Below, in pieces: positions 8,270 through 64,000 of a stretch of DNA of 64,000 nucleotides. Each line of letters begins with the position of its first letter. The first letter of the stretch is position 1. The DNA comes from Brevundimonas sp. EYE_349 (GTDB lineage: Bacteria; Pseudomonadota; Alphaproteobacteria; Caulobacterales; Caulobacteraceae), in assembly GCF_023147505.1 (NCBI RefSeq), contig NZ_JAHXPB010000002.1, forward strand, positions 434,001 to 498,000, given 5' to 3'. A program made the position numbers and the translations under genes. The notes beneath the pieces are model-generated. The model saw only the letters and a program-made list of their open reading frames with translations, was not told the origin of the DNA and searched no databases.

Positions 8270-9357
8270 ATGAAAGCCCGAACCATCCGCGCCTGGTCCT
8301 GGGTCCACAAATGGTCGAGCCTGGTCTCGACGGTGTTCCTGTTGATGCTGTGCGTCACCGGCCTGCCGCTGGTGTTCACCCACGAGTTGGACGAGGTGCT
8401 GCTGCATGAGCCCTGGCAGCCCAAGAACCCGGACGGGCCCCTTCTGGATCTGGACCAGGTGTTGAGCGCGGCCCTGGCCCTGCATCCGGGCGAGGTTCCG
8501 GCCTTCATGAGCTTTGACGAGGATCGGCCGGTGGTGAACGTCACCAGCCGCGCGCCCGACGCCCCCGCCGGCCAATACAGTTTCGAACCCATCGACCAGA
8601 CCAGCGGCGAGGTCGCCCCCCTGGTCGCCGGCCATCCGGTGATGGAGTTCTGCTGCAACTGCATACCGACATGTTCCTGGGCCTGGCCGGAATGCTGTTC
8701 CTGGGCGCCATGGGGCTGATGTTGGTGGCGGCCCTGGTGTCGGGGGTGGTCCTGTATGCGCCCTTCATGCGCCGTCTGCCGTTCGGCACGGTTCGGGCGT
8801 CCAAGGCGGCGCGGACCCGCTGGCTGGACTATCACAACCTGTTGGGCGTCGTGACCCTGGCCTGGGTGCTGGTGGTGGGGACGACCGGGGTGGTCAACAC
8901 CCTGGCGACGCCGATCATCGCCTTTTGGAAGGATACGGCGCTGAAGGAGCTGACCGTCGCCTATGACGCCCCCGCGCCGGCCGGCCGGCGCGCCTCGCTG
9001 GATGCGGCGGTCAAGCGCGCCCAGGCCGCCCTGCCCGGCATGACGCTGCAGTTCGTGGCCTTTCCGGGATCGACCTATTCGACCGACCATCACTATGCCG
9101 TCTTCTTCCACGGGGACACGCCGCTGACCAAGCACATGACCACGCCCGCCCTGATCGACGCGCGCACGGGCGAACTGGCGGCGGTCGCCTCCATGCCCTG
9201 GTATGTGAAGACCCTGTCCCTGTCCCAGCCGCTGCACTTCGGCGACTATGGCGGGCTGGGGCTGAAGATCGTCTGGGCGCTGCTGGACATCGCCACCATC
9301 GTTATCCTGATCTCCGGCCTCTATCTGTGGCTGGCCAAGCGCAGGAAGCCGGCATGA
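8270..9357 (+). pseudogene. PepSY-associated TM helix protein, single-base frameshift
   Basis: PepSY_TM proteins are inner-membrane partners of siderophore receptors, thought to help reduce ferric siderophores in the periplasm. The first frame (8270-8719) reads MKARTIRAWSWVHKWSSLVSTVFLLML and ends in an unnatural Cys-rich tail. The second frame (through 9357) carries the remaining helices and ends ISGLYLWLAKRRKPA. Adding one C at about 8650 would give VMEFLLQLHTDMFLGLAGML, the expected family sequence, so one base is missing. Either the gene is a recent pseudogene or the assembly has an error. Together the pieces would give about 363 aa, a normal length. Confidence 0.85.
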
Positions 9358-43310: not shown

Positions 43311-43700
43311 TTACAGAGATCCATAGGCCGCCACCTCCGCTGGGGTTAGCGGCTGCTCAGCCTTGCGGTGTGTAAGAAGCTGTCGCCGCGCGCCTTCGAT
43401 AAGCATCGTGCCGGAAGTGTTCGCATCCCGCATGGCCTGGCGCCGCCCCATGGCTTGAACAGCCGTCAATTCGTCCTGGGATAGGTAGTGCTCTAGGGTA
43501 GCGTGGATGTGCTTGAGCGAATGCCCGGTGACGGAAGCGATCATGGGCACCGTACAGCCCGCGCGACCGAACTCGACGATCGCCGTATGGCGCAGCGTGC
43601 CTAGCTTCAACTTGCTGTTTTCGTAGCCCGTCGCTCGAGAGCGGATATAGCCAAACCGAGCACTGATTTCCCGCCCGAACGGCTTCCCACCCTCCCCCAG
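43311..43700 (-). pseudogene. second tyrosine recombinase C-terminal remnant
   Basis: Reads KLGTLRHTAIVEFGRAGCTV (catalytic Arg in LRHT), PMIASVTGHSLKHIHATLEH and YLSQDEL with the nucleophile Tyr, then a charged tail. The protein-like sequence starts abruptly at about 43700; beyond that the open frame is antisense to the DUF411 gene. The N-terminal half was lost at this junction. An integrase here, at the right edge, is where an island integrase next to its tRNA would be expected. Confidence 0.75.
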
Positions 43701-43728
43701 CCGTCGCAGCATTCTGTCTGGCGGGCTG

Positions 43729-44151
43729 GTGCTTTGTGGCGTCGTCGTCGGATCCGGAGCGATGGCCCAGACGCGACGAAACATCACGGTCTACAAGACG
43801 CCCTGGTGCGGTTGCTGCGGCCTTTGGGTCGGTCATCTGCGCCAGGCCGGCTGGACGGCCCGTGTCATCGATGTCGAGGACCTCGCCCCCGTCCGGGCGC
43901 GCCACGGGGTGCCGGACAGGCTCGCCTCCTGCCATACCGGCGTCGTCGGCCGCTACGCCATCGAGGGTCATGTGCCGGCCGCCGATATCGATCGGCTGAT
44001 CAGGGAGGCGCCCGCTGGGCGCGCCCTGGTGGTTCCCGGCATGCCCGCCGGCTCGCCTGGGATGGAATCCGCCGGACGTGAGCCCTACGTCTCCCTGCTG
44101 TTGCTCGCCGATGGTCGGACCCGGGTGTACGGCCGTCATAACGGGGGGTGA
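43729..44151 (+). CDS. DUF411 metal-binding protein, 5' end truncated
   Basis: DUF411 proteins are small periplasmic proteins linked to copper handling. The core motif VYKTPWCGCCGLWVGHLRQA is present, with HGVPDRLASCHTGVVGRYAI and the conserved GHVPAADIDRLI. The in-frame sequence continues upstream of the GTG as SRRSILSGGLVLCGVVVG, a twin-arginine signal, but no start codon precedes it before the integrase remnant at about 43700. The gene has therefore probably lost its first codons, and expression is doubtful. Confidence 0.65.
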   Translation: MLCGVVVGSGAMAQTRRNITVYKTPWCGCCGLWVGHLRQAGWTARVIDVEDLAPVRARHGVPDRLASCHTGVVGRYAIEGHVPAADIDRLIREAPAGRALVVPGMPAGSPGMESAGREPYVSLLLLADGRTRVYGRHNGG

Positions 44152-50248: not shown

Positions 50249-50701
50249 TCAGACGCGCGACTTCAGTTGACCGACCCCGCCGGCCGACCGGACACCGGTC
50301 GGCGGCGCTTCCGAGGTTTCTTCCAGATCCATTAGGATCGGACAGTCGGGGCGATTATCGCCCGCGCAACAGGCGATCAGCGTCTGCAGGGTTTCCGACA
50401 TCTGCCTGAGGCTGGCGATTCGCGCATTGAGCACCGCGATATGCGCGCTGGCGATGCGTTTTACATCAGCACTTTGACGCGACCGGTCGTTCCACAGACT
50501 CAGCAGGTCCTGAATCTCAGCGACGGAAAAACCGAGGTCGCGGGCGCGCCGGATGAACCGGAACCGGTGCACGTCCGCGTCCGAATAGTCGCGATAGCCC
50601 GACTCCTTTCTGTCCGCCACCGGGATCAGTCCGGTCTGCTCATAGTAGCGGATCATCTTGGCGGATACGCCGGAAGCCTTAGCTGCCTGACCGATATTCA
50701 T
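50249..50701 (-). CDS. cueR: CueR-like copper-responsive MerR regulator
   Basis: A 150-aa MerR-family activator. It starts MNIGQAAKASGVSAKMIRYY with the winged-helix DNA-binding domain, then a dimer helix containing QSADVKR, the position of the Ser that selects monovalent ions in CueR. The metal loop ACCAGDNRPDCPIL has two Cys spaced by seven residues as in CueR and GolS. It responds to Cu(I), perhaps also Ag or Au, by remodelling promoters with 19-bp spacers; three such promoters occur in this window. It follows copA by 15 bases on the same strand. Confidence 0.9.
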   Translation of the reverse strand: MNIGQAAKASGVSAKMIRYYEQTGLIPVADRKESGYRDYSDADVHRFRFIRRARDLGFSVAEIQDLLSLWNDRSRQSADVKRIASAHIAVLNARIASLRQMSETLQTLIACCAGDNRPDCPILMDLEETSEAPPTGVRSAGGVGQLKSRV

Positions 50702-50716
50702 ACTGATCTCTCCTAT

Positions 50717-53224
50717 TCACCCAAGCCGTCCCGCGCCATCGCCCTCGCCGCCCTGCGGCGACCGGAAGCCACGCAGCCGCAGGGCGTTGCCAAGCACGAA
50801 CACGCTGGACATGGCCATGGCGCCCGCCGCGAACACGGGCGACAGCAAGACACCCCACACAGGATACAGCACGCCGGCGGCGACAGGGATGAGCGCGGCG
50901 TTATAGACGAAGGCCCAGAACAGGTTCTGGCGGATGTTGCCGATGGTGGCCCGCGACAGGGCGATGGCCGTGGCCACGCCCTTCAGGCTGCCCGACATCA
51001 ACACCACATCGGCCGCCTCGATGGCGATATCCGTGCCGTTGCCGACCGCCAGGCCCACATCCGATTCCGCCAGCGCGGGGGCGTCATTGATGCCGTCGCC
51101 GACGAAGGCGACCCGGCCATGCTCGCCCTTGAGACGGCGGACCGCCTCGACCTTGCCGTCCGGCAACACCTCGGCCACGACTTCGTCGATGCCCAATTGG
51201 CGGGCGATGGCGGCGGCGGTGCGGCGGTTGTCGCCGGTGATCATCGCCACCTTCAGGCCCAGTCCGTGCAGGGCGGCGATGGCCGCCGGAGTGCTGGCCT
51301 TGATCGGATCGGCCACCGCGATGATCGCCGCCAGACGTCCGCCGATGGCGGCGTAGAGCGGCGTCTTGCCCTCATCGCCCATGCGGCCAGCGGCGGCGGC
51401 GAAGACGCCCACGTCCAGTCCCAGTTCGCCCATGTAGCGATCCGAACCGATCTGCACGGCCTCGCCGTCCACCGTCGCGGTCACGCCACGTCCCGTAACG
51501 GACTCAAAGGCCGAAACCAGCGGCAGCGTCAGACCCTCGGCCTCGGCGGCCTCGACAATGGCGCGGGCGATGGGGTGTTCGGACTTGGCCTCGACCGCAG
51601 CCACCAGAGCCAGAACGCGGGCGCGCTCCATGCCGGGTTCAATCTGCAGGTCCGTCAGGGCGGGACGACCTTCCGTCAGGGTGCCGGTCTTGTCGACGGC
51701 CACGACCTTGGCGTCCTTGAGCAGTTGCAGCGCCTCGCCCTTGCGGAACAGCACGCCCAGTTCGGCGCCGCGACCGGTGCCGACCATGATGGAGGTCGGC
51801 GTCGCCAGACCCATGGCGCACGGGCAGGCGATGATCAGCACAGCCACCGCATTGACCAGGGCGAAGGTGAGCGCAGGCGACGGACCGAACACCAGCCAGA
51901 CCAGGAAGGTCAGGGCGGCAACAGCCATGACCGCCGGAACGAACCACATCGTCACCTTGTCGACCAGCGCCTGGATCGGCAGCTTGGAGCCCTGGGCCTG
52001 TTCGACCATGCGAATGATCTGGGACAGCATGGTGCCGTCGCCGACCGCCGTGGCGCGGAACACCAGGGCGCCCTTCTGATTGACAGTGCCGCCCACCAGA
52101 GCTGCGCCCGAAGTCTTGGCCACAGGGACCGGCTCGCCGGTGATCATGGATTCATCGACATAGCTTTCGCCCTCGACGACTTCGCCGTCGACCGGAACGC
52201 GCTCGCCGGGACGGACCTCGACCAGATCGCCAGCCGCCACCTCGGTGATGGCGATTTCGACCATCATGCCGTCGCGGCGCACGCGCGCGGTCTTGGCCTG
52301 AAGCCCGACCAGACGCTTGATGGCCTCGGAAGTGCGGCCCTTGGCCTGGGCCTCAAGGAAGCGCCCCAGCAGGACCAGGGTGACGATGACGGCGGCCGCC
52401 TCGTAATAGACATTGACCGTTCCCGCCGGCAGTAGCGCCGGAGCGAAGGTCGCCACCAGGGAATAGGCATAGGCCGCCAGGGTGCCGACAGACACCAGCG
52501 AGTTCATGTCCGGCGCCAGACGCCCCAGGGCGGGCAGACCCTTCTTGTAGAAACGCGCGCCCGGCACGGCCAGCACCAGCGTGGTCAGGGCAAACTGCAG
52601 ATACCAACTGGCCTGCATGCCGATGGTCCCTGCGATCATCGCATGGACGCCCGGAATGAGGTGCGACCCCATCTCCAGCAGGAAGACCGGAAGGCTCAGA
52701 GCGGCGGCGATGATCAGATCACGCTTCAGGGCGGCGCGTTCGGCGTCCTTGCGCTCGGCCGCTTCTTCGCCCGCATCCGCAGCGTCGCTCAGCGGACGCG
52801 CCGTATAGCCCGCGCCAGCCACGGCGGCGATCAGGGCCGACACGTCCGCCGCCCCCTGGATCGTGGCCCGTTCTGTGGCCAGGTTCACGCTGGCGCTCAC
52901 CACGCCCGGCGTCGCCTTCAGCGCCTTTTCGACCCGCCCGACGCAGGACGCGCAGGTCATGCCCTCAATCGCCAGTTCGACGCTGGCGGCCGGAACGGTG
53001 TAACCGGCCGATTCCACAGCCTTGACGAGGTCTGCCATCTGGATCGGTCCGCTCGCCTGGATGTCGGCCCGCTCCGTGGCGAGGTTGACGCTGACCGCGG
53101 CCACGCCCGGCGCCTTGCTGATGGCGCGTTCGACGCGGCCGACGCAGGACGCGCAGGTCATGCCTTCGATCGGCAGACTCAACGGGGAGCCGACGGTTTT
53201 CGTCGGCGCATAGGGGGCGTTCAT
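50717..53224 (-). CDS. copA: copper-exporting P1B-type ATPase
   Basis: An inner-membrane pump of 835 aa that expels Cu(I) from the cytoplasm. Two N-terminal heavy-metal-associated domains each carry GMTCASC (about residues 20 and 90). Further motifs are the TGEP actuator loop, the membrane CPC in [19 protein letters not shown], the phosphorylation site DKTGTLTEG, the [11 protein letters not shown] motif and [14 protein letters not shown]-terminal [11 protein letters not shown] and [16 protein letters not shown] match the Cu(I) class. I start at the ATG at 53224. A CueR-type promoter lies upstream. Confidence 0.95.
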
Positions 53225-53261
53225 CGCGCGATCCTCACACGGGTGACTAGAGTTCGCAGGG

Positions 53262-53292
53262 ATGATGGGGCTTCCCATTGTTGGAATGTCAA
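53262..53292 (-). promoter_or_regulatory. CueR-type promoter of copA
   Basis: Leftward TTGACA (53287-53292), a 19-base spacer and CATCAT as -10 (53262-53267). Inside the spacer is TTCC-N7-GGAA (53272-53286), the core of known CueR boxes. The over-long spacer is the hallmark of MerR-activated promoters. Confidence 0.78.
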
Positions 53293-53318
53293 CTCCCCAA
53301 AAAAAGTCGCGACCATCC

Positions 53319-53349
53319 TTGACCTTCCAACGATGGCAAGGGGCATTTC
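53319..53349 (+). promoter_or_regulatory. second CueR-like promoter, facing the HMA gene
   Basis: TTGACC (53319-53324), then TTCCAACGATGGCAAGG within a 19-base spacer and a poor -10 (CATTTC). The right half-site is degenerate (GCAAGG rather than GGAAGG). It would drive the HMA chaperone and DUF305 genes. Confidence 0.55.
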
Positions 53350-53383
53350 ATCTCTCACCAACCGATGCGAAAGGACTTTTCCC

Positions 53384-53578
53384 ATGCAGTTCCACGTCGA
53401 AAACATGACCTGCGGCTCGTGCGTGAAGCACATCACCCAGGCCATCGCCACGGTGGATCCGAACGCCCGTCTCGAGGCCGATACGGTGTCGCGCACCATC
53501 TCGGTGACCACCACCGCCGACGCCGACGCCATCCAGCAGGCGCTGGCGGACGACGGATACACCGCCCGGCCCCTCTGA
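53384..53578 (+). CDS. small heavy-metal-associated copper chaperone
   Basis: A 64-aa single HMA domain: [20 protein letters not shown] carries the MxCxxC copper site, and the rest ([20 protein letters not shown]) completes the ferredoxin-like fold. Such CopZ-like proteins carry Cu(I) to CopA in the cytoplasm. AAAGGA precedes the ATG. It is divergent from copA with CueR-like boxes between and is followed after 11 bases by a DUF305 gene. Confidence 0.9.
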
Positions 53579-53589
53579 GCTCTTCCGAC

Positions 53590-54000
53590 ATGCAAGCGAA
53601 GGCTCTCACCGTCATCTTCATCGCCGGCGTCGCCCTGGCCGCCAGCGGTCTCGCCTATGCCCAGTCCCAGATCGTCAAAGGAGATTCGGAACACGCCATG
53701 ACCCAGAACAGCCACGCCAATCACCCCGCCCCCGTCCCTTCCGGCAATCCTGCCGTGCGCGCCTATCAGGAAGCCAACGACCGGATGCACGCCGACATGA
53801 CCATCGATTTCACCGGCGACGCCGACGTCGATTTCATGAAGGGAATGATTCCACACCATCAGGGGGCCATCGACATGGCCCGCGTCGCGCTGGAACATGG
53901 ACGGGATCCGGAGGTTCGCCGGCTCGCCGAGTCCGTCATCACCGCCCAAGAGGCGGAGATCGCCATGATGCAGTCCTGGCTCGATACCCGGAACCGGTAA
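53590..54000 (+). CDS. DUF305 periplasmic protein, CopM-like
   Basis: A 136-aa exported protein with an N-terminal signal ([20 protein letters not shown]) and the DUF305 ferritin-like core [20 protein letters not shown], plus [13 protein letters not shown]. The Met/His-rich sequence suits copper binding; CopM of this family binds copper in cyanobacteria. It probably shares the CueR-controlled transcript with the HMA chaperone. Confidence 0.87.
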
Positions 54001-54084
54001 AGGCCGCCCCTTCGCCGCCGTTCCCTCCCCCGATGTGGGGGTGGAGTTGGCGTCATCGGACAGAAACCTTCGAGAACGCCATGG

Positions 54085-54111
54085 CAGGCGCACCAGTCCC
54101 TGGTGCGCCTG
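54085..54111 (+). terminator. terminator after the DUF305 gene
   Basis: A perfect 12-bp stem CAGGCGCACCAG / CTGGTGCGCCTG with loop TCC, followed by AACCCTTTT. It also separates the convergent arsR gene. Confidence 0.7.
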
Positions 54112-54150
54112 AACCCTTTTCCGAACAGCGCCCAATCGCCGCCGTCGTCT

Positions 54151-54480
54151 TCAGGCGTCCTCATCCTCATTGATGTGGTGAAGCATGTCGATCAGCACAT
54201 GACTGACATGATGATCGGCCACCTCGTAGAAAACCTGCCGCGAGGAACGTTCTCCCCGGACCAAGCGCGCCCCGCGCAGAAGCCTGAGATGGTGGCTGAC
54301 GAGGGTCTGGGACAGGTCCAGGCTGTCGGCGATCTGCTTGACAGGCTTCGGGCCATTCAGACAGAACATGAGGATTCTCAGACGGGTCGGATCGCCCAGC
54401 AGACGAAAGGTCTCTGCAAGAGCCGACAGTTGGCGCGTATCCAGCGCTGGCACCTTTTCGTCGCTGGCCCGTTCCGACAT
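54151..54480 (-). CDS. ArsR/SmtB-family metal-responsive repressor
   Basis: A 109-aa winged-helix repressor: LSALAETFRLLGDPTRLRIL, VKQIADSLDLSQTLVSHHLR (recognition helix), RGERSSRQVFYEVADHHVSH. The C-terminal helix ADHHVSHVLIDMLHH supplies Asp/His ligands at the alpha5 metal site, as in zinc, nickel or cobalt sensors such as CzrA and KmtR. It follows the outer-membrane channel gene of the RND operon by 80 bases; it may be part of that transcript or control it. Its targets are unknown. Confidence 0.87.
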   Translation of the reverse strand: MSERASDEKVPALDTRQLSALAETFRLLGDPTRLRILMFCLNGPKPVKQIADSLDLSQTLVSHHLRLLRGARLVRGERSSRQVFYEVADHHVSHVLIDMLHHINEDEDA

Positions 54481-54560
54481 GGCGTACGCTCCCCCGCATC
54501 ATTAAACATATGGCGATGTCTTCACCTGTTCATGTATCGTGAGACAGGGCGTCGCTCCAA

Positions 54561-56039
54561 TCAAGTGCGACCGCCTGTCTGCGTCTGTTCGGTCCAGCCG
54601 CCGCCCAGCGCCTTGTAGAGGGTCGTCAGATTGCTCAGCCGGGCCAGACGGGCGCGCAGCAGCGCCTGTTCCGATCCATAAAGGGTGCGCTGGGCGTCCA
54701 GAACCGACAGCGAACTGTCCTCGCCTTCCTGATGCCGCCTCTGCGCCAGATCATAGGCGCGGCGGCTCGCATCCACCCTCTGCTGTTCGGAAAGGATCTG
54801 TCGTTCGAGGGCGTCGCGCGCGGCAAGCCCATCGGCGACCTCCCGGAAGCCCGCCTGAACGGCCCGCTCATAACGCGCCACCTCGATTCTCTGCCGCACC
54901 TTGGCGAGGTCCAGATTGGCCGACAGGGCGCCGCCGTTGAAAATCGGCAGGCTGAGCCGGGGCGCGAAACTCCAGCTTCTGGTTCCGGCGCTGAACAGAT
55001 TGTCCAGATCGCTGCTGGCCGATCCTGCCGAGCCCGTCAGGGTGATCGTCGGAAAGAAGGCCGCGCGCGCGGCGCCGATATTGGCGTCGGCGCCGCGCAG
55101 CATCTGTTCGGCGGCGCGGATATCCGGTCGTCGGTCCAGCAGATCGGACGGCAGACCGGCGGGCAGGTTCGCCTCGACCACATCATCCGGCAGCGGTTCG
55201 CCCGCCCATGCCTGAAGCGTCCGGGCCAGGTCCGCATCCAGAGGCTGGCCGATCAGCAGGGTCAAGGCGTTGAGATCCTGAGCCGCCTGCCGTTCGTAAA
55301 CCGCCTGATCCGCCTCGGCGGAGCGAAGCGCGATCTCGGTCCTGCGGACATCGAGTTCGCCCGCCTCCCCGACCTCGGCCAGAAGCTGGGTCAGTTCATG
55401 AGAGCGCCGCTGGGCTTCGGCGGTGTCCCTGGCCAGTTCCAGCAGGGCCTGATCGGTGCGCAGGGTGAAATAGGCGGTCGCCACCTCCGACACCAGACTG
55501 AGTTGCGCGGCCGTCCGCGTCTCGTCCAGCGCAAGCCAGGTCGCCAGGGCCTGGTCATTGAGGCTGCGCACACGGCCCCAGAGGTCCAGCTCCCAGGCCG
55601 TGACCGCCCCGCCCGCCTCATAGGCGCGCGTCACCTCGGACTGACCGGTTGGGCTGAGATCCGCCGGCGTCCTCTGCGACACGCCCGCGGCGACGCCGTC
55701 GATGCGGGGCAGGCTGTCAGCGCGCCGGATGCGATACTGGGCGCGCGCCGCCTCAACATTCAGGGCGGCGACCCTCAGGTCGCGGTTGGCGTCCAGTGAG
55801 GTCGCGATAAGCTGTTGCAGGACCGGATCACGAAAGACATCGCGCCAGCCCAGATCAGCCGCCGCAACCGCAGCCGGAGCGGCCGCCTGATCCGCCTGCG
55901 AAGGATAGGCCGCCGCCACCGGCGCGACGGGCCGCACCGTCGTCGGCGCCATGGCGCAACCGGCCACCGCAAAGACCGCCGACAGGGCGACGCCGTAAGC
56001 GAGCCTGCGGCCCGGACGAAGCAGAGAAGAGGATTTCAT
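54561..56039 (-). CDS. RND efflux outer-membrane channel (NodT/OprM family)
   Basis: A 492-aa TolC-like lipoprotein channel. The N-terminal signal ends with lipobox VAGC. Two repeated coiled-coil halves are visible (DLRVAALNVEAARAQYRIRR; LLDRRPDIRAAEQMLRGADA with the family signature, then NIGAARAAFFPTITLTGSAG). It lies after the RND permease and forms the outer-membrane exit of the tripartite pump. The ATG at 56039 is chosen because the signal peptide begins there. Confidence 0.92.
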   Translation of the reverse strand: MKSSSLLRPGRRLAYGVALSAVFAVAGCAMAPTTVRPVAPVAAAYPSQADQAAAPAAVAAADLGWRDVFRDPVLQQLIATSLDANRDLRVAALNVEAARAQYRIRRADSLPRIDGVAAGVSQRTPADLSPTGQSEVTRAYEAGGAVTAWELDLWGRVRSLNDQALATWLALDETRTAAQLSLVSEVATAYFTLRTDQALLELARDTAEAQRRSHELTQLLAEVGEAGELDVRRTEIALRSAEADQAVYERQAAQDLNALTLLIGQPLDADLARTLQAWAGEPLPDDVVEANLPAGLPSDLLDRRPDIRAAEQMLRGADANIGAARAAFFPTITLTGSAGSASSDLDNLFSAGTRSWSFAPRLSLPIFNGGALSANLDLAKVRQRIEVARYERAVQAGFREVADGLAARDALERQILSEQQRVDASRRAYDLAQRRHQEGEDSSLSVLDAQRTLYGSEQALLRARLARLSNLTTLYKALGGGWTEQTQTGGRT

Positions 56040-56119
56040 GGAGTCATTCTCCTTGTGGGTTGGCCGCGTCGTCCTCCGTCCTGACCGCGAGGGCCGTTGA
56101 ACGGAGGACGACCACGGCA

Positions 56120-59100
56120 TCACTCGGCCGTCGGCGCGATGTGTCGGGCCGCATTGCGGCGGCGCTCACGACGCAGTTCGAAACGGCGCACGATCACGTA
56201 GAAAACCGGGGTCAGCAGCAGACCGAACAGGGTCACGCCCAGCATCCCCGAGAAAACGGCGATACCCATGGCGTGCCGCATCTCCGCCCCCGCGCCCGTG
56301 GCCAGCACCAGCGGCACGACACCGGCGATGAAGGCGAGCGAGGTCATCAGAATGGGCCGCAGACGCAGACGGGCGGCTTCCAGAACGGCGCCGAGCGGAT
56401 CGACCCCGTCATGTTCCCTGGCGCGGGCGAACTCGACGATCAGGATGGCGTTCTTGGCCGCCAGCCCCACCAGCACCACAAAGCCGATCTGGGTGAAGAT
56501 GTTGTTGTCGCCCCCCGACAGCCACACGCCGACGATCGCCGACAGAAGGGCCATGGGCGCGATCAGCAGCACCGCCAGAGGCAGGGACCAGCTATTATAC
56601 TGGGCCGCCAGGATCAGGAAGGCGAGCAGGACCGCCAGCGGGAAGACATACATGGCCGTGTTGCCCGCCTGCTTCTCCTGGAACGTCAGATCGGTCCATT
56701 CATAGGTCATGCCCGCCGGCAGGGTTTCCTGCACGATCCGCTCGATCGCCGCCGTCGCCTGGCCTGAAGAATAGCCGGGCGCGGCGCCGCCGCTGATGTC
56801 GGCGGACGGATAGCCGTTATAGTGCATGACCCGGTCCGGTCCCGAACTGCGCGTGATGCGGACCAGAGAGGCCAGAGGGATCATTTCGCCCGAGGCGTTG
56901 CGCACCTTGAGCTGGCCGATGTCCTCGGCCTGCTGACGGAACGGCGCGTCCGCCTGGACCATGACGCGATAGGTCCGGCCGAAACGATTGAAGTCGTTCA
57001 CATACATCGAGCCGAGATTGACCTGCAAAGCCTCGAAAACGGTCGTCAGGGGCACGCCCATGGCCCGCGCCTTGACCCGGTCGATATCGACCTGAATCTG
57101 TGGCGCATTGGTCTGGAAGCTGGCCAGCATGCCGGCCAGTTCCGGCGTCTGATAGGCCTTGGCCATGACCTCGCCCTGGGCCTTGGCCAGGGCGTCGAAG
57201 CCCAGTCCCGCCCGATCCTCGATCTGGAGTTTGAACCCGCCCATGGCGCCCAGTCCCGGCACCGGCGGCGGCGGGAAGACGCCGATGAAGCCGTCGGGAA
57301 TCTGGCTGAACTGCCCCATCAGGCGACCAGCGATGGCGTTGGCCGACAGATCAGGCGTCTTGCGCTGGTCGAACGGGTCCAGCATCACGAACATGAGGGC
57401 CGCATTGGGGATGTTGGCCCCGCCGTTGACCGACAGACCAGGGAAGGCGACGACGCTTTCGACGCCGGGCGTCTTCAGAGCCGTATCGGACACCTGCTTC
57501 ACCACCGCCTCGGTGCGGTCCAGAGAGGCGCCCGTGGGCAACTGAACCACGCCGACCAGATAGTATTTGTCCTGCGGCGGCACGAAACCGTTGGGGATAT
57601 GGTTGAAGCCCAGCCACGTCAGGCCGATCAGACCGCCATAGACGATCAGAACCAGTCCCGTGACCCGCACCGCGCGCTTCACCGACCAGACATAGCCGTT
57701 GGACGCACGATCAAAGGCGCCGTTGAAGCGGCGGAAGAAGCCGCCGAACAGGCGATCGATGATCCGGGTCAGCCGGTCGCGCGGCGCATCGCCGTGGTGC
57801 GGCTTCAGCAGCACGCCCGCCAGGGCCGGAGACAGGGTCAGAGAGTTGACCGCCGAGAAGATGGTCGAGATGGCGATGGTCAGGGCGAACTGGCGATAGA
57901 ACTCGCCCTGCAGGCCCGACAGGAAGGCGGAGGGAATGAAGACCGCCGCCAGCACCGAGGTGATGGCCAGGATCGGCCCCGTCACCTCGTCCATGGCCGC
58001 GCGCGCCGCCTCCTTGGGCGACTTGCCCATGGCGATGTGACGCTCGACGTTTTCCACCACGACGATGGCGTCATCGACCACGATGCCGATCGACAGCACC
58101 AGGCCGAACAGCGACAGGGTGTTCAGCGAGAAGCCGAACAGATGCATCATCGCAAAGGTCGCCACCAGCGAGATCGGCACCGCCACCAGCGGAATGATCG
58201 AGGCGCGCCACGACTGAAGGAACAGCACCACCACCAGCACCACCAGCAGGATGGCTTCCACCAGGGTGACGCTGACCGACTTCAGCGAAGCCCGGACGAA
58301 GACCGTCGGATCATAGGCGATCTGATATTCAAGCCCCTCGGGGAACTCGGTCTGCAAACGATCCATGGCGCCGCGAACGGCGTCGGACACGTCCAGCGCA
58401 TTGGCGCCGGGGCTCTGGAAAATCTGCATGGCCACGGCGGGTTTGCCGTTCAGCAGGCTGCGCATGCCATAGGCGTCGGCGCCCAGTTCGATGCGCGCAA
58501 CATCACGCAGGCGCGTAACCTGCCCCTCATCGCCCGACTTGATCACAATGTCGCCGAACTGCTCTTCGGATGTCAGCCGCCCCAGGGTGTTGACGGTGAT
58601 CTGGGTGGCCGCCGAGGCGTTGGGCTGCTGGCCGATGGAGCCGGCGGCGACCTGGACGTTCTGTTCGCGGATGGCCGCGACCACGTCGCCGGCGGTCAGG
58701 CCGCGCGCCGCCACCTTGTCAGGATCCAGCCACGCGCGCATGGCGTATTCGCCCTCGCCGCCCAGAACCACGTCGCCGACCCCCGGCAGACGCGCCAGTT
58801 CATCGCGGATATGCAAGCGCGCATAGTTGGAGACGAACAGGGAATCATAACGGTCGTTGGGCGACCGCAGGTGGACCACCATTAGCACGTCAGGCGACGT
58901 CTTCTGGGTGACGACCCCGATGCGCTGCACCTCTTCGGGAAGACGCGGCAGCGCGCGGGCCACACGGTTCTGGACCTGGATCTGGGCCAGGTCAGGGTCC
59001 GTGCCCTGTTTGAAGGCGACCGTCAGGGTCATGCGGCCGTCGGTGGCCGCCTGAGAGCCCATATAGAGCATTCCCTCGACACCGTTGATGGCCTGTTCCA

Positions 59101-59299
59101 GCGGCGCGGAGACTGTCTCGGCGATGACCTGGGGATTGGCGCCGGGATAGCTGGCCGTGACCTGCACCGTGGGCGGCGTCACCTGGGGATACTCGCTCAG
59201 CGGCAGGCGCATGAAGGCCAGCCCCCCGGCGATCAGCATCAAGACCGAAAGCACGACCGCAAAGATCGGCCGGTCCACAAAGAAACGGGGAAATTTCAT
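56120..59299 (-). CDS. RND efflux permease, HAE-1 (AcrB/MexB) type
   Basis: A 1059-aa trimeric proton-driven inner-membrane pump. It starts MKFPRFFVDRPIFAVVLSVL and has twelve membrane segments and two large periplasmic loops. GIVVDDAIVVVENVERH in TM4 contains the paired Asp of drug-type pumps, not the variant typical of CzcA/CusA heavy-metal pumps. By sequence it belongs with AcrB/MexB, yet its operon promoter looks CueR-controlled. The ATG overlaps the adaptor gene's stop (ATGA). Confidence 0.94.
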   Translation of the reverse strand: MKFPRFFVDRPIFAVVLSVLMLIAGGLAFMRLPLSEYPQVTPPTVQVTASYPGANPQVIAETVSAPLEQAINGVEGMLYMGSQAATDGRMTLTVAFKQGTDPDLAQIQVQNRVARALPRLPEEVQRIGVVTQKTSPDVLMVVHLRSPNDRYDSLFVSNYARLHIRDELARLPGVGDVVLGGEGEYAMRAWLDPDKVAARGLTAGDVVAAIREQNVQVAAGSIGQQPNASAATQITVNTLGRLTSEEQFGDIVIKSGDEGQVTRLRDVARIELGADAYGMRSLLNGKPAVAMQIFQSPGANALDVSDAVRGAMDRLQTEFPEGLEYQIAYDPTVFVRASLKSVSVTLVEAILLVVLVVVLFLQSWRASIIPLVAVPISLVATFAMMHLFGFSLNTLSLFGLVLSIGIVVDDAIVVVENVERHIAMGKSPKEAARAAMDEVTGPILAITSVLAAVFIPSAFLSGLQGEFYRQFALTIAISTIFSAVNSLTLSPALAGVLLKPHHGDAPRDRLTRIIDRLFGGFFRRFNGAFDRASNGYVWSVKRAVRVTGLVLIVYGGLIGLTWLGFNHIPNGFVPPQDKYYLVGVVQLPTGASLDRTEAVVKQVSDTALKTPGVESVVAFPGLSVNGGANIPNAALMFVMLDPFDQRKTPDLSANAIAGRLMGQFSQIPDGFIGVFPPPPVPGLGAMGGFKLQIEDRAGLGFDALAKAQGEVMAKAYQTPELAGMLASFQTNAPQIQVDIDRVKARAMGVPLTTVFEALQVNLGSMYVNDFNRFGRTYRVMVQADAPFRQQAEDIGQLKVRNASGEMIPLASLVRITRSSGPDRVMHYNGYPSADISGGAAPGYSSGQATAAIERIVQETLPAGMTYEWTDLTFQEKQAGNTAMYVFPLAVLLAFLILAAQYNSWSLPLAVLLIAPMALLSAIVGVWLSGGDNNIFTQIGFVVLVGLAAKNAILIVEFARAREHDGVDPLGAVLEAARLRLRPILMTSLAFIAGVVPLVLATGAGAEMRHAMGIAVFSGMLGVTLFGLLLTPVFYVIVRRFELRRERRRNAARHIAPTAE

Positions 59300-60516
59300 C
59301 GGGCGGCCTCCGCCGACGGGGCCGCCTGCCCAGCAGGGGCCGCAGCCCCCGTCGCAGTCGCAGCCGCAGTCGGGGCGGCCGCCATGGGCTGCGGCGTCAC
59401 CTTCATGCCGGGACGCACCAGTCCCTTGACGATGACAGTGTCGCCGGGATTGAGGCCCGTCTCCACCACACGCATCCCGTCAACCACGGGACCGAGCGAC
59501 ACCGGGCGATATTCAGCGGTGTTTCCTTCACCCAGAACCATGACATAGGTCTGGCCCTGTTCAGCGCCGACCGCCTGATCGTCGATCAGCATGGCCTGAC
59601 GCGGCGCCCCGGTATCCAGTCGGATCCTGGCGAAAAGACCCGGCGCCAGTTGACCGGACGGATTGGCCACGATCGCACGCGCGCGGATCGTTCCAGTGCC
59701 GCGATCGACCTGGGCGCCGAGGAAGTCCAGCGTGCCCTGATGCGGGAACCCGTCTTCGCTCATCAGCCCGATCTGGACCGGAAAACGCCCCGCCCGGCCC
59801 GAGCCGTTCGGACGGGCGCGCTGTGCGAAGTCGAGATAGGTCGCCTCATCCATGTCGAAATAGGCATAGACGGGGTTCACCGAGACGATGGAGGTCAGCG
59901 GCGTGGTTCCGGCGGCCACAATATTGCCGGTCGTCACCAGCACCCGATCGACCCGGCCGCTGATCGGCGCGGTCACGCGGGTGTAGGACAGGTCCAGACG
60001 CGCGGCGGCGACGGCGGCGCGCGCGGCGGCGACCTGGGCCTCGGACTGACGCGCCTTGCTCTGGGCGTTCTCAAGGGCGCGGACCGGTATGGCGCCGCCG
60101 GGCGCCAGTTGCTCAGCCCGCGACAGATCGGACTGAGCCTGCGCCAGCAGGGCCTCGGCCTGCCTCAACTGCGCCTGGGCGCCGTCCAGCGCGACCTGGA
60201 ATGGTCTGGGATCGATCTGGAAGAGCAGTTGCCCACGCTGGACCAGCCCGCCTTCCGGCACGCTGACCCGGATGATCGGGCCGCTGACCTGGGCGCGCAG
60301 CTCGACGGTATCGGGCGCAGCGAGGTGTCCGGTGAATTCCGCAGCCGGTGCGATTTCCCGCATGACGACCTTGGCGACGGGAACGGCGGGCGCTCCCGGC
60401 GGGGCGGAAGCGGCGGCCGGCGCGCCCCCGCCCTGTGTTTGCAGAACATAGATCAGCCCCGCCGCGGCCAGCAGCCCGGCGGCCGCGATCACGGCGGTCT
60501 TCTTGTTGAAGCGCAT
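59296..60516 (-). CDS. RND efflux periplasmic adaptor
   Basis: A 406-aa membrane-fusion protein linking the permease to the outer channel. It has an N-terminal anchor (KKTAVIAAAGLLAAAGLIYV), lipoyl/barrel domains (VELRAQVSGPIIRVSVPEGG, LSYTRVTAPISGRVDRVLVT), a helical hairpin rich in Ala/Gln/Glu, and an Ala/Pro-rich tail. AAGGGGA lies before the ATG at 60516. It is the first gene of the leftward adaptor-permease-channel operon. Confidence 0.92.
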   Translation of the reverse strand: MRFNKKTAVIAAAGLLAAAGLIYVLQTQGGGAPAAASAPPGAPAVPVAKVVMREIAPAAEFTGHLAAPDTVELRAQVSGPIIRVSVPEGGLVQRGQLLFQIDPRPFQVALDGAQAQLRQAEALLAQAQSDLSRAEQLAPGGAIPVRALENAQSKARQSEAQVAAARAAVAAARLDLSYTRVTAPISGRVDRVLVTTGNIVAAGTTPLTSIVSVNPVYAYFDMDEATYLDFAQRARPNGSGRAGRFPVQIGLMSEDGFPHQGTLDFLGAQVDRGTGTIRARAIVANPSGQLAPGLFARIRLDTGAPRQAMLIDDQAVGAEQGQTYVMVLGEGNTAEYRPVSLGPVVDGMRVVETGLNPGDTVIVKGLVRPGMKVTPQPMAAAPTAAATATGAAAPAGQAAPSAEAAR

Positions 60517-60585
60517 CGGTCGTCCCCTTGGAAATCGCCGCAGATTCGACACTGATCGAAGGCGGCTTGGCGCCGATTTCCATGG

Positions 60586-60616
60586 GTGATGCAGATTCCA
60601 ACGCTAGGAAGGTCAA
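60586..60616 (-). promoter_or_regulatory. CueR-type promoter of the RND efflux operon
   Basis: Leftward TTGACC (60611-60616), 19-base spacer containing TTCC-TAGCGTT-GGAA (60596-60610), and CATCAC as -10 (60586-60591). Its layout is nearly identical to the copA promoter at 53262-53292, including the spacer and the CATCA -10. Confidence 0.72.
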
Positions 60617-60688: not shown

Positions 60689-61879
60689 TCAGATCGAAGG
60701 GGGCGCGCTTCGCCGCGCGGCCTGCCACAGCAGGGGCGCCAGAATCAGGGCGACAGGCGGAAACAGCAGCCAGTTGATGGCCTGCCAGCCGGAGGTGTTC
60801 AGCACGGCCCCCGCCAGGAAGGACACGATGGCGGTGGCCCCGAAGACGAAGAAGTCATTGGCGCCCTGGGCCTTGCCCCGCTCCTCGGCCGTATGACAGT
60901 CCGTCACCATGGCCGTGGCCCCGATGAAGCTGAAATTCCAGCCCACGCCCATAATCATCAGCGACAGCCAGAAATTGGCCACCGCCATGCCTGACAGGGC
61001 GACAGCCGCCGAGACGGCGATCAGCACCATGCCCACGGCGGCGACCCGCTCCTTGCCGAAACGCCCCATCAGCCGTCCGGTGAAGAAGCTCGGCGCGAAC
61101 ATGGCCAGCAGATGCCACTGGATGCCCAGCGCCGCGCTGTTCACCGAATGGCCGGCGTTGACCATGGCCACCGGGGCGGCCGTCATGACGAAAGCCATCA
61201 GGCCGTAGGACACCACGCCCGTCGCCACCGCCAGGATGAAACGCGGAACGCGCATGATCTGACCCAGAGACCGGCCGCCGCCGGCGCCGGACTGAACGAC
61301 CGCCGGCGGCGAACGCAGCAGCAACAGGACCGGGATGACCAGCAAGGCCAGGGCGGCCTGACTGAGGAAACTGCCGACGTAGGGCGTGCCCGGCACGGCG
61401 TCCCGGGTCCAGATGACCAGTTGTGGGCCGACGACGGCGGCGACCAAGCCGCCGACCATCACCCAGGAAATCGCCTTTGCTTTCAGGTCTCCTTCGGCGC
61501 CGTCGGCGGCCGCGAAGCGGTAGCTCTGAACATAGGCGCCGTAGAGACCGGCGGTGAAGGCGCCTATGCAAAAGAGCCAGAAGGACGCGATGAAGATGCC
61601 GAAGGCCGCCACGAGACCGGAGGCGACGCCGAACAGCGCGCCCAGCAGATAGCCGTTCCGACGACCATGTCGCCGCATGATGAAGGCCGCCGGCGGTGCG
61701 CCGAGGGCGAGGCCGACGCCGAACAGACTGACTGGAAACGTGACCCAGGCGGGATCGGCGGCCAGGTGCTGCCCCACCAGACCGCCTAAGGACATCACGA
61801 TCGGCGGGCTGGCGCCGCCCAATGCTTGGGCGGCGGTGAGGACGGCCATGTTTCGGCGGGCGATCGACTGATCAGTCAT
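60689..61879 (-). CDS. MFS transporter
   Basis: A 396-aa protein with about 12 membrane helices. The start is MTDQSIARRNMAVLTAAQAL, and RRHGRRNGYLLGALFGVASG is the usual MFS loop 2-3 motif. FMTDCHTAEERGKAQG-like loops suggest the YnfM/multidrug-like group. It diverges from the CsoR-type gene across a candidate CsoR operator, so it could be metal-regulated. The substrate is unknown. Confidence 0.85.
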   Translation of the reverse strand: MTDQSIARRNMAVLTAAQALGGASPPIVMSLGGLVGQHLAADPAWVTFPVSLFGVGLALGAPPAAFIMRRHGRRNGYLLGALFGVASGLVAAFGIFIASFWLFCIGAFTAGLYGAYVQSYRFAAADGAEGDLKAKAISWVMVGGLVAAVVGPQLVIWTRDAVPGTPYVGSFLSQAALALLVIPVLLLLRSPPAVVQSGAGGGRSLGQIMRVPRFILAVATGVVSYGLMAFVMTAAPVAMVNAGHSVNSAALGIQWHLLAMFAPSFFTGRLMGRFGKERVAAVGMVLIAVSAAVALSGMAVANFWLSLMIMGVGWNFSFIGATAMVTDCHTAEERGKAQGANDFFVFGATAIVSFLAGAVLNTSGWQAINWLLFPPVALILAPLLWQAARRSAPPSI

Positions 61880-61955: not shown

Positions 61956-62231
61956 ATGCAGGCCAGAGACGTCAAATCAATCCGCTCCGCCCTGAACCGG
62001 ATTTCCGGTCAGGTTCGCGGCGTCAGCCAGATGGTGGAGGACGGCCGTTACTGCATCGATATCCTTTATCAGGTCCATGCCGCCCGCGCGGCCCTGGCCC
62101 GTGTCGAAACCCAGATTCTCAAATCGCACGCCGCGTCCTGTGTCGAGGACGCGATTGCGTCAGGCGACGCCGCTCAGCAGCGCGAAAAATTCACCGAACT
62201 GGCGGAGTTGTTCGCCAAAGCGAAACTCTAG
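61956..62231 (+). CDS. csoR: CsoR-type copper-sensing repressor
   Basis: A 91-aa all-helical DUF156 repressor (CsoR/RcnR/FrmR family). Metal ligands follow the CsoR Cys-His-Cys pattern: Cys in GRYCIDILYQV, His and Cys in LKSHAASCVEDAI. RSALNRISGQVRGVSQMVED is the DNA-binding N-terminal helix. Metal binding releases it from DNA. The ATG is 9 bases after the candidate operator. It is followed by a glutaredoxin fusion gene. The copper assignment rests on ligands and context. Confidence 0.88.
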   Translation: MQARDVKSIRSALNRISGQVRGVSQMVEDGRYCIDILYQVHAARAALARVETQILKSHAASCVEDAIASGDAAQQREKFTELAELFAKAKL

Positions 62232-62246
62232 AACCCGGAGGGAACC

Positions 62247-63005
62247 ATGGCCTCACCCGCCAAACGCGCCGAAATTTACCGAATGGTCATGCCGGGCCAC
62301 ACCTGCCCCTATGGCCTGAAGGCGCTGCACCTGCTCAAGAGCCAGGGCTATGCGGTGCAGGATCACCACCTCGCCTCGCGTGAGGAAACCGACGCCTTCA
62401 AGGCCGAACACGGCGTCCAGACCACGCCCCAGACCTTCATCGACGGCCAGCGGATCGGCGGCTACGACGACCTGCGGCGCTTCTTCGGCAAGCGAGTGCG
62501 CGACAAGGACGAAGTCACCTATACGCCCGTCATCGCCCTGTTCGCCATGGCCGTGCTGATGGCCCTCGCGGCGGGCTGGGCCGCCTATGGCGAACTGATG
62601 TCGGTGCGTGTCGTCGAATGGTTCATCGCCATCGCCATGTGTCTTCTGGCCCTGCAGAAGCTCAAGGACGTGGACGCCTTCGCCACCATGTTCCTGAACT
62701 ATGATCTGCTGGCCAAGCGCTGGGTTCCCTATGGGACGATCTATCCCTTCGCCGAAGCACTGGCGGGTGTGCTGATGCTGGCCGGGGCGCTGATGTGGGT
62801 TTCGATCCCGGTCGCCCTGTTCATCGGCGGCGTGGGCGCCGCATCGGTGTTCAAGGCGGTCTATATCGACAAGCGTGAACTGAAATGCGCCTGCGTCGGC
62901 GGCGACAGCAAGGTGCCGCTGGGTTTCGTCTCGCTGTCGGAAAACCTGATGATGGTCGGCATGGCGATCTGGATGCTCGTCAAGCCGATGACCATGGGGC
63001 ACTGA
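62247..63005 (+). CDS. glutaredoxin - MauE/DoxX-like membrane fusion
   Basis: A 252-aa two-part protein. Residues 1-85 are a glutaredoxin: MPGHTCPYGLKALHLLKSQG with the CPYG active site, and TTPQTFIDGQRIGGYDDLRR. Residues 90-250 are four membrane helices like MauE/DoxX redox proteins (VRVVEWFIAIAMCLLALQKL, ALAGVLMLAGALMWVSIPVA) ending with CACVGGDSKVPLGFVSLSEN, a second Cys pair. It probably shuttles electrons or handles copper-damaged thiols. It lies 15 bases after csoR in the same operon. Confidence 0.85.
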   Translation: MASPAKRAEIYRMVMPGHTCPYGLKALHLLKSQGYAVQDHHLASREETDAFKAEHGVQTTPQTFIDGQRIGGYDDLRRFFGKRVRDKDEVTYTPVIALFAMAVLMALAAGWAAYGELMSVRVVEWFIAIAMCLLALQKLKDVDAFATMFLNYDLLAKRWVPYGTIYPFAEALAGVLMLAGALMWVSIPVALFIGGVGAASVFKAVYIDKRELKCACVGGDSKVPLGFVSLSENLMMVGMAIWMLVKPMTMGH

Positions 63006-63076: not shown

Positions 63077-64000
63077 TCAGTGGGCGTGCGCCCTGCGCGC
63101 CCCCGCTGCGGACTTTGGCTCGTGATCGTGACCGGCGTGGTCATGATCTCCATGATCATGGCCCGAATGGTCGTGATCCGAATGGTCATGACCAGAGTGA
63201 TCGTGGCCAGAGCGATCGTGGGCATCATGGTCATTGACCGGCGGCGACGACAGGCTGCACACCACGGACCCATCGTTCCAGTCCACGGCGACGGTGGGAT
63301 GCTCAATACTGAACCTGGACTTCAACTCCCGCTCAACAGCGATCGCCACGGCCCGCGCCTGAGCGTCGGATTCCGGACGCACATGCAGGGTCGCCAGGGT
63401 GCGGCCTGACGTGATCTGCCAGACGTGGACGTGGCTGACCTCGGCCAGACCCGGCACCTTGGCCTTCAGGTGAGCCGTCACCGCATCAGGCGCGGCGTTG
63501 TCAGGCGCGCCTTCCAGCAGGATGTGCAGCGACTTGCCCAGCAGCTTCCAGGCGCTGCGCAGGATCAGCAGCGAAACCAGCACCGACAGGATCGGGTCGA
63601 TCGGCGTCCAGCCCGTCAGGGAGATGATGATCGCGGCGGCGACAGCACCGACCGAGCCAAGCAGATCGCCCATCACATGCAGGGCCGCGCCCTTGATGTT
63701 GACGTGTTCGGTGTCGCCGCGGGTCAGGATCCAGAACACCAGGATGTTGACCAGCAGGCCCGCCACGGCCACCCAGAACATCGGGCCGGCCAGAACGGCA
63801 TGCGGTTCCTTGAAGCGGTTCCACGCCTCAAACAGGATCCAGCCGACGATGGCGAACAACGTCACCGCATTGACGAAACCGGCGACGACCTCGAAGCGCA
63901 TATAACCGAAGGTGCGCTTGGAATCGGCCATGCGGCGTCCGAAGCGGAACGCCAGATAGGCCAGCGCCAGCGCGATGGCGTCGGTCAGCATGTGGCCGGC
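63077..64000 (-). CDS. CDF-family cation efflux protein, N-terminus outside window
   Basis: A zinc/cobalt/cadmium exporter of the CzcD/ZitB type; about 307 codons are visible and the N-terminal helices lie beyond the right edge. AGHMLTDAIALALAYLAFRF has the His/Asp metal site of TM2, and HVMGDLLGSVGAVAAAIIIS gives the second His/Asp site in TM5. The cytoplasmic domain (VHVWQITSGRTLATLHVRPE) follows. The C-terminus is a striking His/Asp repeat (HDHSGHDHSDHDHSGHDHGD) likely to bind metal. Confidence 0.92.
   Translation of the reverse strand, partial: AGHMLTDAIALALAYLAFRFGRRMADSKRTFGYMRFEVVAGFVNAVTLFAIVGWILFEAWNRFKEPHAVLAGPMFWVAVAGLLVNILVFWILTRGDTEHVNIKGAALHVMGDLLGSVGAVAAAIIISLTGWTPIDPILSVLVSLLILRSAWKLLGKSLHILLEGAPDNAAPDAVTAHLKAKVPGLAEVSHVHVWQITSGRTLATLHVRPESDAQARAVAIAVERELKSRFSIEHPTVAVDWNDGSVVCSLSSPPVNDHDAHDRSGHDHSGHDHSDHDHSGHDHGDHDHAGHDHEPKSAAGARRAHAH

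Follow-up and report, generated by a model that had tools for sequence, protein, structure and literature searches.

Why should an efflux pump of the resistance-nodulation-division (RND) class, drug-type in its residues, stand behind the same kind of promoter as a copper ATPase? The question is raised by a gene cluster of Brevundimonas sp. EYE_349, located in a stretch of 64,000 nucleotides (contig NZ_JAHXPB010000002.1, positions 434,001 to 498,000) that we call the window and whose positions are counted from its first letter. With a probability of roughly 85%, we read the cluster as a regulon triggered by a coinage metal, in which an activator of the CueR/GolS type would control copA, a chaperone pair and a pump orthologous to GesABC/MdsABC. 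Genes were called by scans with NCBIfam and Pfam models. Identities to Ges and Gol proteins refer to genome G690, which we take for Salmonella (gene layout gesABC-golTS-golB). The cluster is composed as follows.

50249-50701, minus strand: predicted MerR activator of cueR/golS type (TIGR02044, 174 bits, cut-off 147.4; S77, C112, C120)
50717-53224, minus strand: P1B ATPase of copA/golT type, exporting Cu(I) and bearing two HMA domains (NCBIfam and Pfam; identity to GolT)
53292-53272, minus strand: box A, CueR-type operator/promoter of copA, TTGACATTCCAACAATGGGAA; hexamer CATCAT at 53267-53262
53319-53339, plus strand: box B, CueR-type operator/promoter of the HMA chaperone, TTGACCTTCCAACGATGGCAA, with GCAA for GGAA; hexamer CATTTC at 53344-53349
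53384-53578, plus strand: HMA copper chaperone, CopZ/GolB-like (PF00403; 39% to GolB)
53590-54000, plus strand: CopM-family DUF305 metallochaperone (NF049983, above cut-off)
54561-56039, minus strand: outer-membrane factor of the NodT family, GesC-like (TIGR01845, above cut-off; 57% to GesC)
56120-59299, minus strand: HAE1 RND permease of the GesB clade (NF000282, above cut-off; tree; relay residues)
59296-60516, minus strand: periplasmic adaptor, GesA/MexP-like (TIGR01730, above cut-off; 54% to GesA)
60616-60596, minus strand: box C, CueR-type operator/promoter of the RND operon, TTGACCTTCCTAGCGTTGGAA; hexamer CATCAC at 60591-60586

In each box, a -35-like TTGACN directly abuts the palindrome TTCC-N7-GGAA, with a 19-bp spacer. 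An earlier note on this DNA had claimed three such CueR-type sites, one of them degenerate, before copA, the HMA chaperone and the RND adaptor, and all three can be read directly. The hexamers that follow TTGACN by 19 nt are weak as -10 elements in all boxes, none being strong. Box C lies 100 bp 5' of the adaptor ATG, in the intergenic stretch of 172 bp that separates the adaptor from an MFS gene, and on the strand of both genes; the reading frames of adaptor and permease share 4 bp. As a minor correction, the open reading frame (ORF) of copA is readable from 53278, that is, from within operator box A, and its plausible start is 53224. The boxes resemble the CueR and HmrR signals given in a passage of PMC1526738, ACCTTCCC-(5)-TGGAAGGT and ACCTTCCAG-(3)-CTGGAAGG, both with 19-bp spacers. 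According to an excerpt of PMC5045206, CueR-type regulators with A13-K14-M15 pair with operators whose site positions 8 and 11 are A and T, respectively; by our own mapping of positions, which is not the authors' alignment, boxes A, B and C all fit this rule.

The palindrome TTCC-N7-GGAA alone is not significant (three occurrences in the window against 0.77 expected, equalled in 7 of 100 shuffles), and for this reason the test was replaced by one of the full promoter pattern, TTGACN-TTCC-N7-GGAA with TTGACN in register. Exact matches to the full pattern are found at only two sites of the 3.44-Mb genome, boxes A and C, as against none for the reversed control and 0.03 expected genome-wide from the base composition of the window. 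Seven more sites differ by one mismatch: box B, a site denoted L007 (5' of a second HMA gene, 5.4 kb beyond the last position of the window), three sites within long ORFs (L003, L008, L009) and two where a doubtful ORF begins (L004, L005). At up to two mismatches, 56 sites compare with 22 of the reversed control. This excess is modest, and weak matches elsewhere are therefore not to be taken as members of the regulon.

Next, we examined whether relatives of the pump carry the box. Species genomes were scanned for relatives of the adaptor. The best 80 of 572 were taken, and the 400 bp upstream of each were searched at up to two mismatches, with the reversed pattern as control. The box was found in 28 of the 29 adaptors sharing at least 54% identity (L061-L089), which belong to alpha-, beta- and gammaproteobacteria; seven of the 28 are exact, seven have one mismatch and 14 have two. 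The remaining 51 adaptors (L090-L140; Pseudomonas and one Stutzerimonas, 47-49% identity) are MexE-like and none has a box, the negatives of L090 and L091 being weak with less than 200 bp upstream. Ignoring relatedness, the difference corresponds to a Fisher p of about 1e-20. The sole exception among the 29, L086 of Achromobacter pulmonis, has a one-mismatch box at 8466 and an ISL3 transposase between box and adaptor (L086:8466-9878), a natural separation of the pump from its switch.

Other samples agree with this picture. All seven loci from the family of genome G268, which we take for Enterobacteriaceae, are boxed at up to two mismatches (seven genomes passing E 1e-95 among 392). At the same threshold, none of 28 paralogous adaptors, 27 of congeners and one of the same order, has a box. 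A phylum sample of 397 genomes gave 55 matches besides the window's own, 29 of which had loci and were scanned; one of these is boxed (L184, with a MexQ-type permease) and the other 28 are not. Of the 36 boxed loci compared, one being the window, 29 have [TC]A-N3-T at the -10 position; it is lacking in the window, L088 and five loci of MexQ type. We do not claim that all relatives keep a fixed 19-bp spacing, the hexamer being shown at that offset by construction, nor that RND and copA boxes form distinct flavours, their mean Hamming distances differing slightly (3.86 vs 4.42). Since the box is kept across alpha-, beta- and gammaproteobacteria, it is likely that the RND operon is regulated by a CueR/GolS-type activator.

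Were box C a chance match, the RND operon would be controlled otherwise, for example by an ArsR/SmtB-type regulator whose gene (54151-54480, minus strand) lies directly 3' of the outer-membrane gene. Such a metal-sensor gene does adjoin the operon, the -10 of box C is weak, and weak matches are not rare genome-wide, as counted above. However, exact boxes are expected at about 2e-6 per 460 bp, and the retention of the box in close relatives and in the G268 family is hard to reconcile with chance, which we regard as extremely improbable.

The nature of the pump was examined by aligning its permease with AcrB and CusA from the E. coli K-12 record. Transmembrane helix 4 (TM4) reads VDDAIVV, as in AcrB, whereas CusA has VDAAIVM. 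D409, D410, K949, R979 and T986 form the full AcrB relay (AcrB D407, D408, K940, R971 and T978), and the CusA methionine triad M573/M623/M672 is replaced by V/A/V. Identity amounts to 41.7% with AcrB and to 23.6% with CusA, and among solved chains the best matches bear the annotation multidrug or membrane efflux pump. Neither mark of CusA and the heavy-metal efflux (HME) RND type, the Met triad or a single TM4 Asp, is found in the permease, which scores 379 bits with TIGR00914 against a cut-off of 701. The drug-type TM4 noticed earlier is thus borne out and extends to the whole relay. Residues D, D, K, R and T are present in all 30 GesB-type and all six MexQ-type rows, none of which has the CusA triad. 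Because the proton relay is of drug type and the metal-relay methionines are missing, the pump most likely exports organic molecules, presumably toxins linked to copper.

If the pump itself exported copper or silver, it would be a functional replacement of Cus. Its predicted co-regulation with copA would fit such a role, and a passage of PMC9470648 places CusCBA under P. aeruginosa CueR, which can be taken to mean this pump. The AcrB-type relay, the V/A/V residues, the lack of the triad in all GesB- and MexQ-type rows and the low identity to CusA speak against it, and an excerpt of PMC7922089 argues likewise for MexQ; metal export by the pump is accordingly very unlikely. E. coli CusCFBA shares copper-linked RND efflux with the window and differs in its HME type, its Met relay and its low sequence identity. 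It is regulated by CusRS. In the E. coli K-12 record, the cusRS genes are encoded beside it.

Comparison with G690 revealed closer kinship. Besides the adaptor, outer-membrane protein and chaperone identities listed above, the permease is 78% identical to GesB. CopA shares 75% with GolT but 44% with CopA of G690, and the regulator 65-66% with GolS but 39% with CueR (60.8% and 35.5%, respectively, in a full alignment). As pump, ATPase and regulator are nearer to Ges and Gol proteins than to CopA and CueR of G690, the likeness to gol is one of orthology. The ges box lies about 101 bp 5' of the adaptor start (extrapolated from the alignment), compared with 100 bp for box C. Both loci have the order adaptor-permease-outer-membrane protein and boxes of the same kind 5' of pump, ATPase and chaperone. 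They differ in that the window's ATPase and pump are about 7 kb apart, not divergently adjacent as in Salmonella, and that its regulator follows copA and is the only protein of the genome passing the CueR cut-off. The window also adds CopM and an ArsR gene and lies in a block shared with one congener. A passage of PMC10333786 describes gold resistance and GolS-dependent, gold-induced drug resistance, and relates MdsB (GesB) to MexQ. Our literature search turned up no report of an alphaproteobacterial GesABC. Among the relatives, L085 (Leclercia) was considered as a gol locus and rejected, its 21-kb stretch having no CueR- or CopA-like match at 1e-5.

A permease tree was built from 41 rows left after thinning, by a quick search and with AcrB as a long outgroup; L066, L088 and L091 were dropped as too short, and L071, L073, L074, L076 and all MexF-like rows except eight are omitted. 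Permeases of GesB and of MexQ type group together in one clade (support of 97 in the Shimodaira-Hasegawa-like approximate likelihood-ratio test, SH-aLRT), with the unboxed MexF-like rows outside. The window permease falls within a GesB clade of 26 rows (SH-aLRT 98), whose sister group is the MexQ clade; inside the GesB clade it stands on a branch of alphaproteobacteria (87, not starred). On these grounds the pump is identified as a GesABC/MdsABC orthologue of that branch and close kin of MexPQ-OpmE. The idea of a gol-like regulon, put forward in the earlier note as an analogy with Salmonella, is thus largely supported and becomes one of homology.

Genome G927, located with the published mexPQ-opmE operator (one mismatch; one of 398 genomes), is taken by us for P. 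aeruginosa. Its MexQ is 71% and its MexP 51% identical to the window proteins, the outer-membrane protein only 32%. Passages of PMC7922089 and PMC12833586 state that P. aeruginosa CueR controls MexPQ-OpmE; that of PMC7922089 adds copA1 and copZ1/2 to the regulon and argues that MexPQ-OpmE is a drug pump rather than a copper pump. Like the window pump, MexPQ-OpmE is of drug type; it is under a CueR, as is predicted for the window pump, and its permease belongs to the sister clade. Its operator is of CCTTG type, that of the window of CCTTCC type, and in G927, unlike the window, it stands apart from copA- and cueR-like genes. The earlier note, which had overlooked this pump, expected an alphaproteobacterial link between metal sensing and drug or chelate efflux. 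Such a link gains from box conservation, which makes activator control likely, but it is not new, being preceded by CueR-MexPQ-OpmE as described in those passages.

MexEF-OprN and OqxAB belong to the same HAE1 subfamily: the window's model matches are NF000282, OqxB and MexE, and permease identity is 63-65%, but MexE-like loci are unboxed. Of two MexE-like adaptors scanned, one scored above the MexE cut-off and one, a shortened protein, just below; for the window adaptor, MexE is the nearest model, with a score under the cut-off.

The cluster is part of a larger unit. Among 36 congeners searched, the adaptor was found at 99% identity only in genome G001, the matches listed for others being paralogues or fragments of at most 45%. 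A block of 35,587 bp is shared with G001 at 99.67% identity; it runs from window position 43688 to about 79267, roughly 15 kb past the last position of the window. Outside it no further match to G001 longer than 200 bp was found, barring cross-hits of two CDF genes; the block edges are provisional, the G001 flanks compared measuring 1.6 and 1.8 kb. No composition step is seen at the cluster. Copper genes on the block include CopM and, beyond the window, a PcoA-type oxidase. L081 and L083 likewise carry CueR, CopA, CDF, ArsR, MFS, a glutaredoxin fusion and the pump inside 21 kb. A DUF411 gene lies at the left edge of the block. An ORF near this edge (43311-43787, minus strand) had been taken by eye only for a tyrosine-recombinase fragment; it has no NCBIfam or Pfam match, and the candidate was dropped.

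Which metal might the regulator sense? It has the CueR hallmarks C112, C120 and S77 and a model score above the cut-off, and its recognition helix SAKMIRYYE is identical to that of GolS. Positions 113 and 118 reportedly determine gold selectivity. The loop CAGDNRPDC shares A113 and P118 with GolS (CAGDALPDC), whereas CueR of E. coli and of G690 have P113/A118. Together with the closeness of CopA to GolT, these features would suit a gold-selective sensor of GolS type, the whole set being then a gold-resistance (gol) regulon and not a copper one. However, of 21 CueR-type proteins from congeners and other copper loci, 16 have A113 together with P118, and all have P118. The CueR-like protein of G927 also has P118, and P. 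aeruginosa CueR is a copper sensor. The block bears the copper genes CopM and PcoA-type oxidase. The review PMC6337107 gives only a range, 'residues 113 to 118'. Because 16 of the 21 other rows have it too, the GolS-like loop was rejected as proof of a gold sensor, and gold and copper sensing are not to be told apart from it. A regulon dedicated to gold seems unlikely to us, though less so than metal export by the pump.

Several points weigh against the regulon as we read it. The -10 of box C (CATCAC) is weak, and the window deviates from the [TC]A-N3-T of most boxed loci. The reversed control matched at up to two mismatches in two of the 29 closer loci (L062, L082), and in none of the 51 MexE-like ones. 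The adaptor set is restricted to the best 80 of 572 relatives, and the near-identical copies L070, L071 and L073-L076 are not independent. The ArsR/SmtB-type gene just 3' of the pump operon could contribute control by zinc; the C-terminal helix of its product, D-x-H ... H-x-x-E, resembles, as we judge it, the SmtB zinc site. Finally, according to an excerpt of PMC12833586, the in vitro affinity of P. aeruginosa CueR is lower for the mexPQ-opmE promoter (146 nM) than for that of copZ2 (33 nM), and promoters to which CueR binds more tightly exceed mexPQ-opmE in expression by up to 50-fold. By this ranking, induction of the pump may be modest.

With these points in mind, a coinage-metal regulon still appears the best reading, and from the comparisons above we infer how its regulator would bind, respond to metal and serve the pump's substrates. 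Copper-bound CueR, an activator of the MerR type, realigns a promoter with a 19-bp spacer. In the window, the predicted activator (50249-50701) would bind three operators, each within an over-long 19-bp promoter, and Cu(I) or another monovalent coinage metal on it would cause the DNA to be untwisted. This would switch on copA, the copZ-copM pair and the MexE/OqxB-like tripartite RND operon. CopA would then export the ion, and the pump those organic molecules that become toxic or abundant in copper stress, such as drugs, ionophores or metal-ligand complexes.

Further genes adjoin the cluster. Directly upstream of box C stands an MFS transporter (60689-61879, minus strand), relatives of which, at about 73% identity, adjoin the same pump in several beta- and gammaproteobacterial loci. 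A CsoR-family repressor (61956-62231, plus strand; best model RicR, below cut-off) carries C33, H58 and C62, which we take for copper-type ligands, and is a possible second copper sensor alongside CueR. It is followed by a glutaredoxin-membrane protein fusion (62247-63005, plus strand) and by a CDF transporter (63077-63991, minus strand), where a repeat with a 15-bp period near the gene end encodes a His/Asp-rich tail. At L007 (contig positions 503393-503461), a divergent pair of CueR-like boxes with one and two mismatches separates a second HMA chaperone and a PoxB-type pyruvate dehydrogenase, on one side, from an acetolactate-synthase large subunit and an aldehyde-dehydrogenase-like gene on the other. 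Copper control of pyruvate metabolism is a possible consequence. The idea that acetolactate synthase is generally under CueR control was rejected, none of five plasmid homologues being boxed at up to two mismatches (163 records matched), and no report linking CueR with acetolactate synthase turned up in the literature searched.

What does the cluster say about this family of pumps? The family is widespread and already known from Salmonella and Pseudomonas, and the window cluster is a further, well-conserved member. What the cluster adds is the probable origin of the metal switch in a single clade and the company of copper genes on a shared block. Since boxed GesB and MexQ rows form one clade with unboxed MexF-like rows outside it, the simplest reading, and a likely one, is that the switch was acquired once, at the root of this clade. 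More tentatively, and with doubt prevailing, the clade would have gained the switch once and kept it across alpha-, beta- and gammaproteobacteria, even where the pump travels with copper genes, as a dedicated exporter of copper-linked organic toxins. If true, its substrates would be ionophores and copper or gold chelates, the pump not being a general drug pump incidentally induced by metal, and the defence would be one of two substrates, the ATPase clearing the ion and the pump the ligand. The results suggest that metal control in Salmonella GolS-GesABC and in P. aeruginosa CueR-MexPQ is a common trait of one clade and not two inventions, and that this clade can move along with copper-resistance genes in environmental bacteria. 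In such hosts, copper would be predicted to co-induce a pump of multidrug type.

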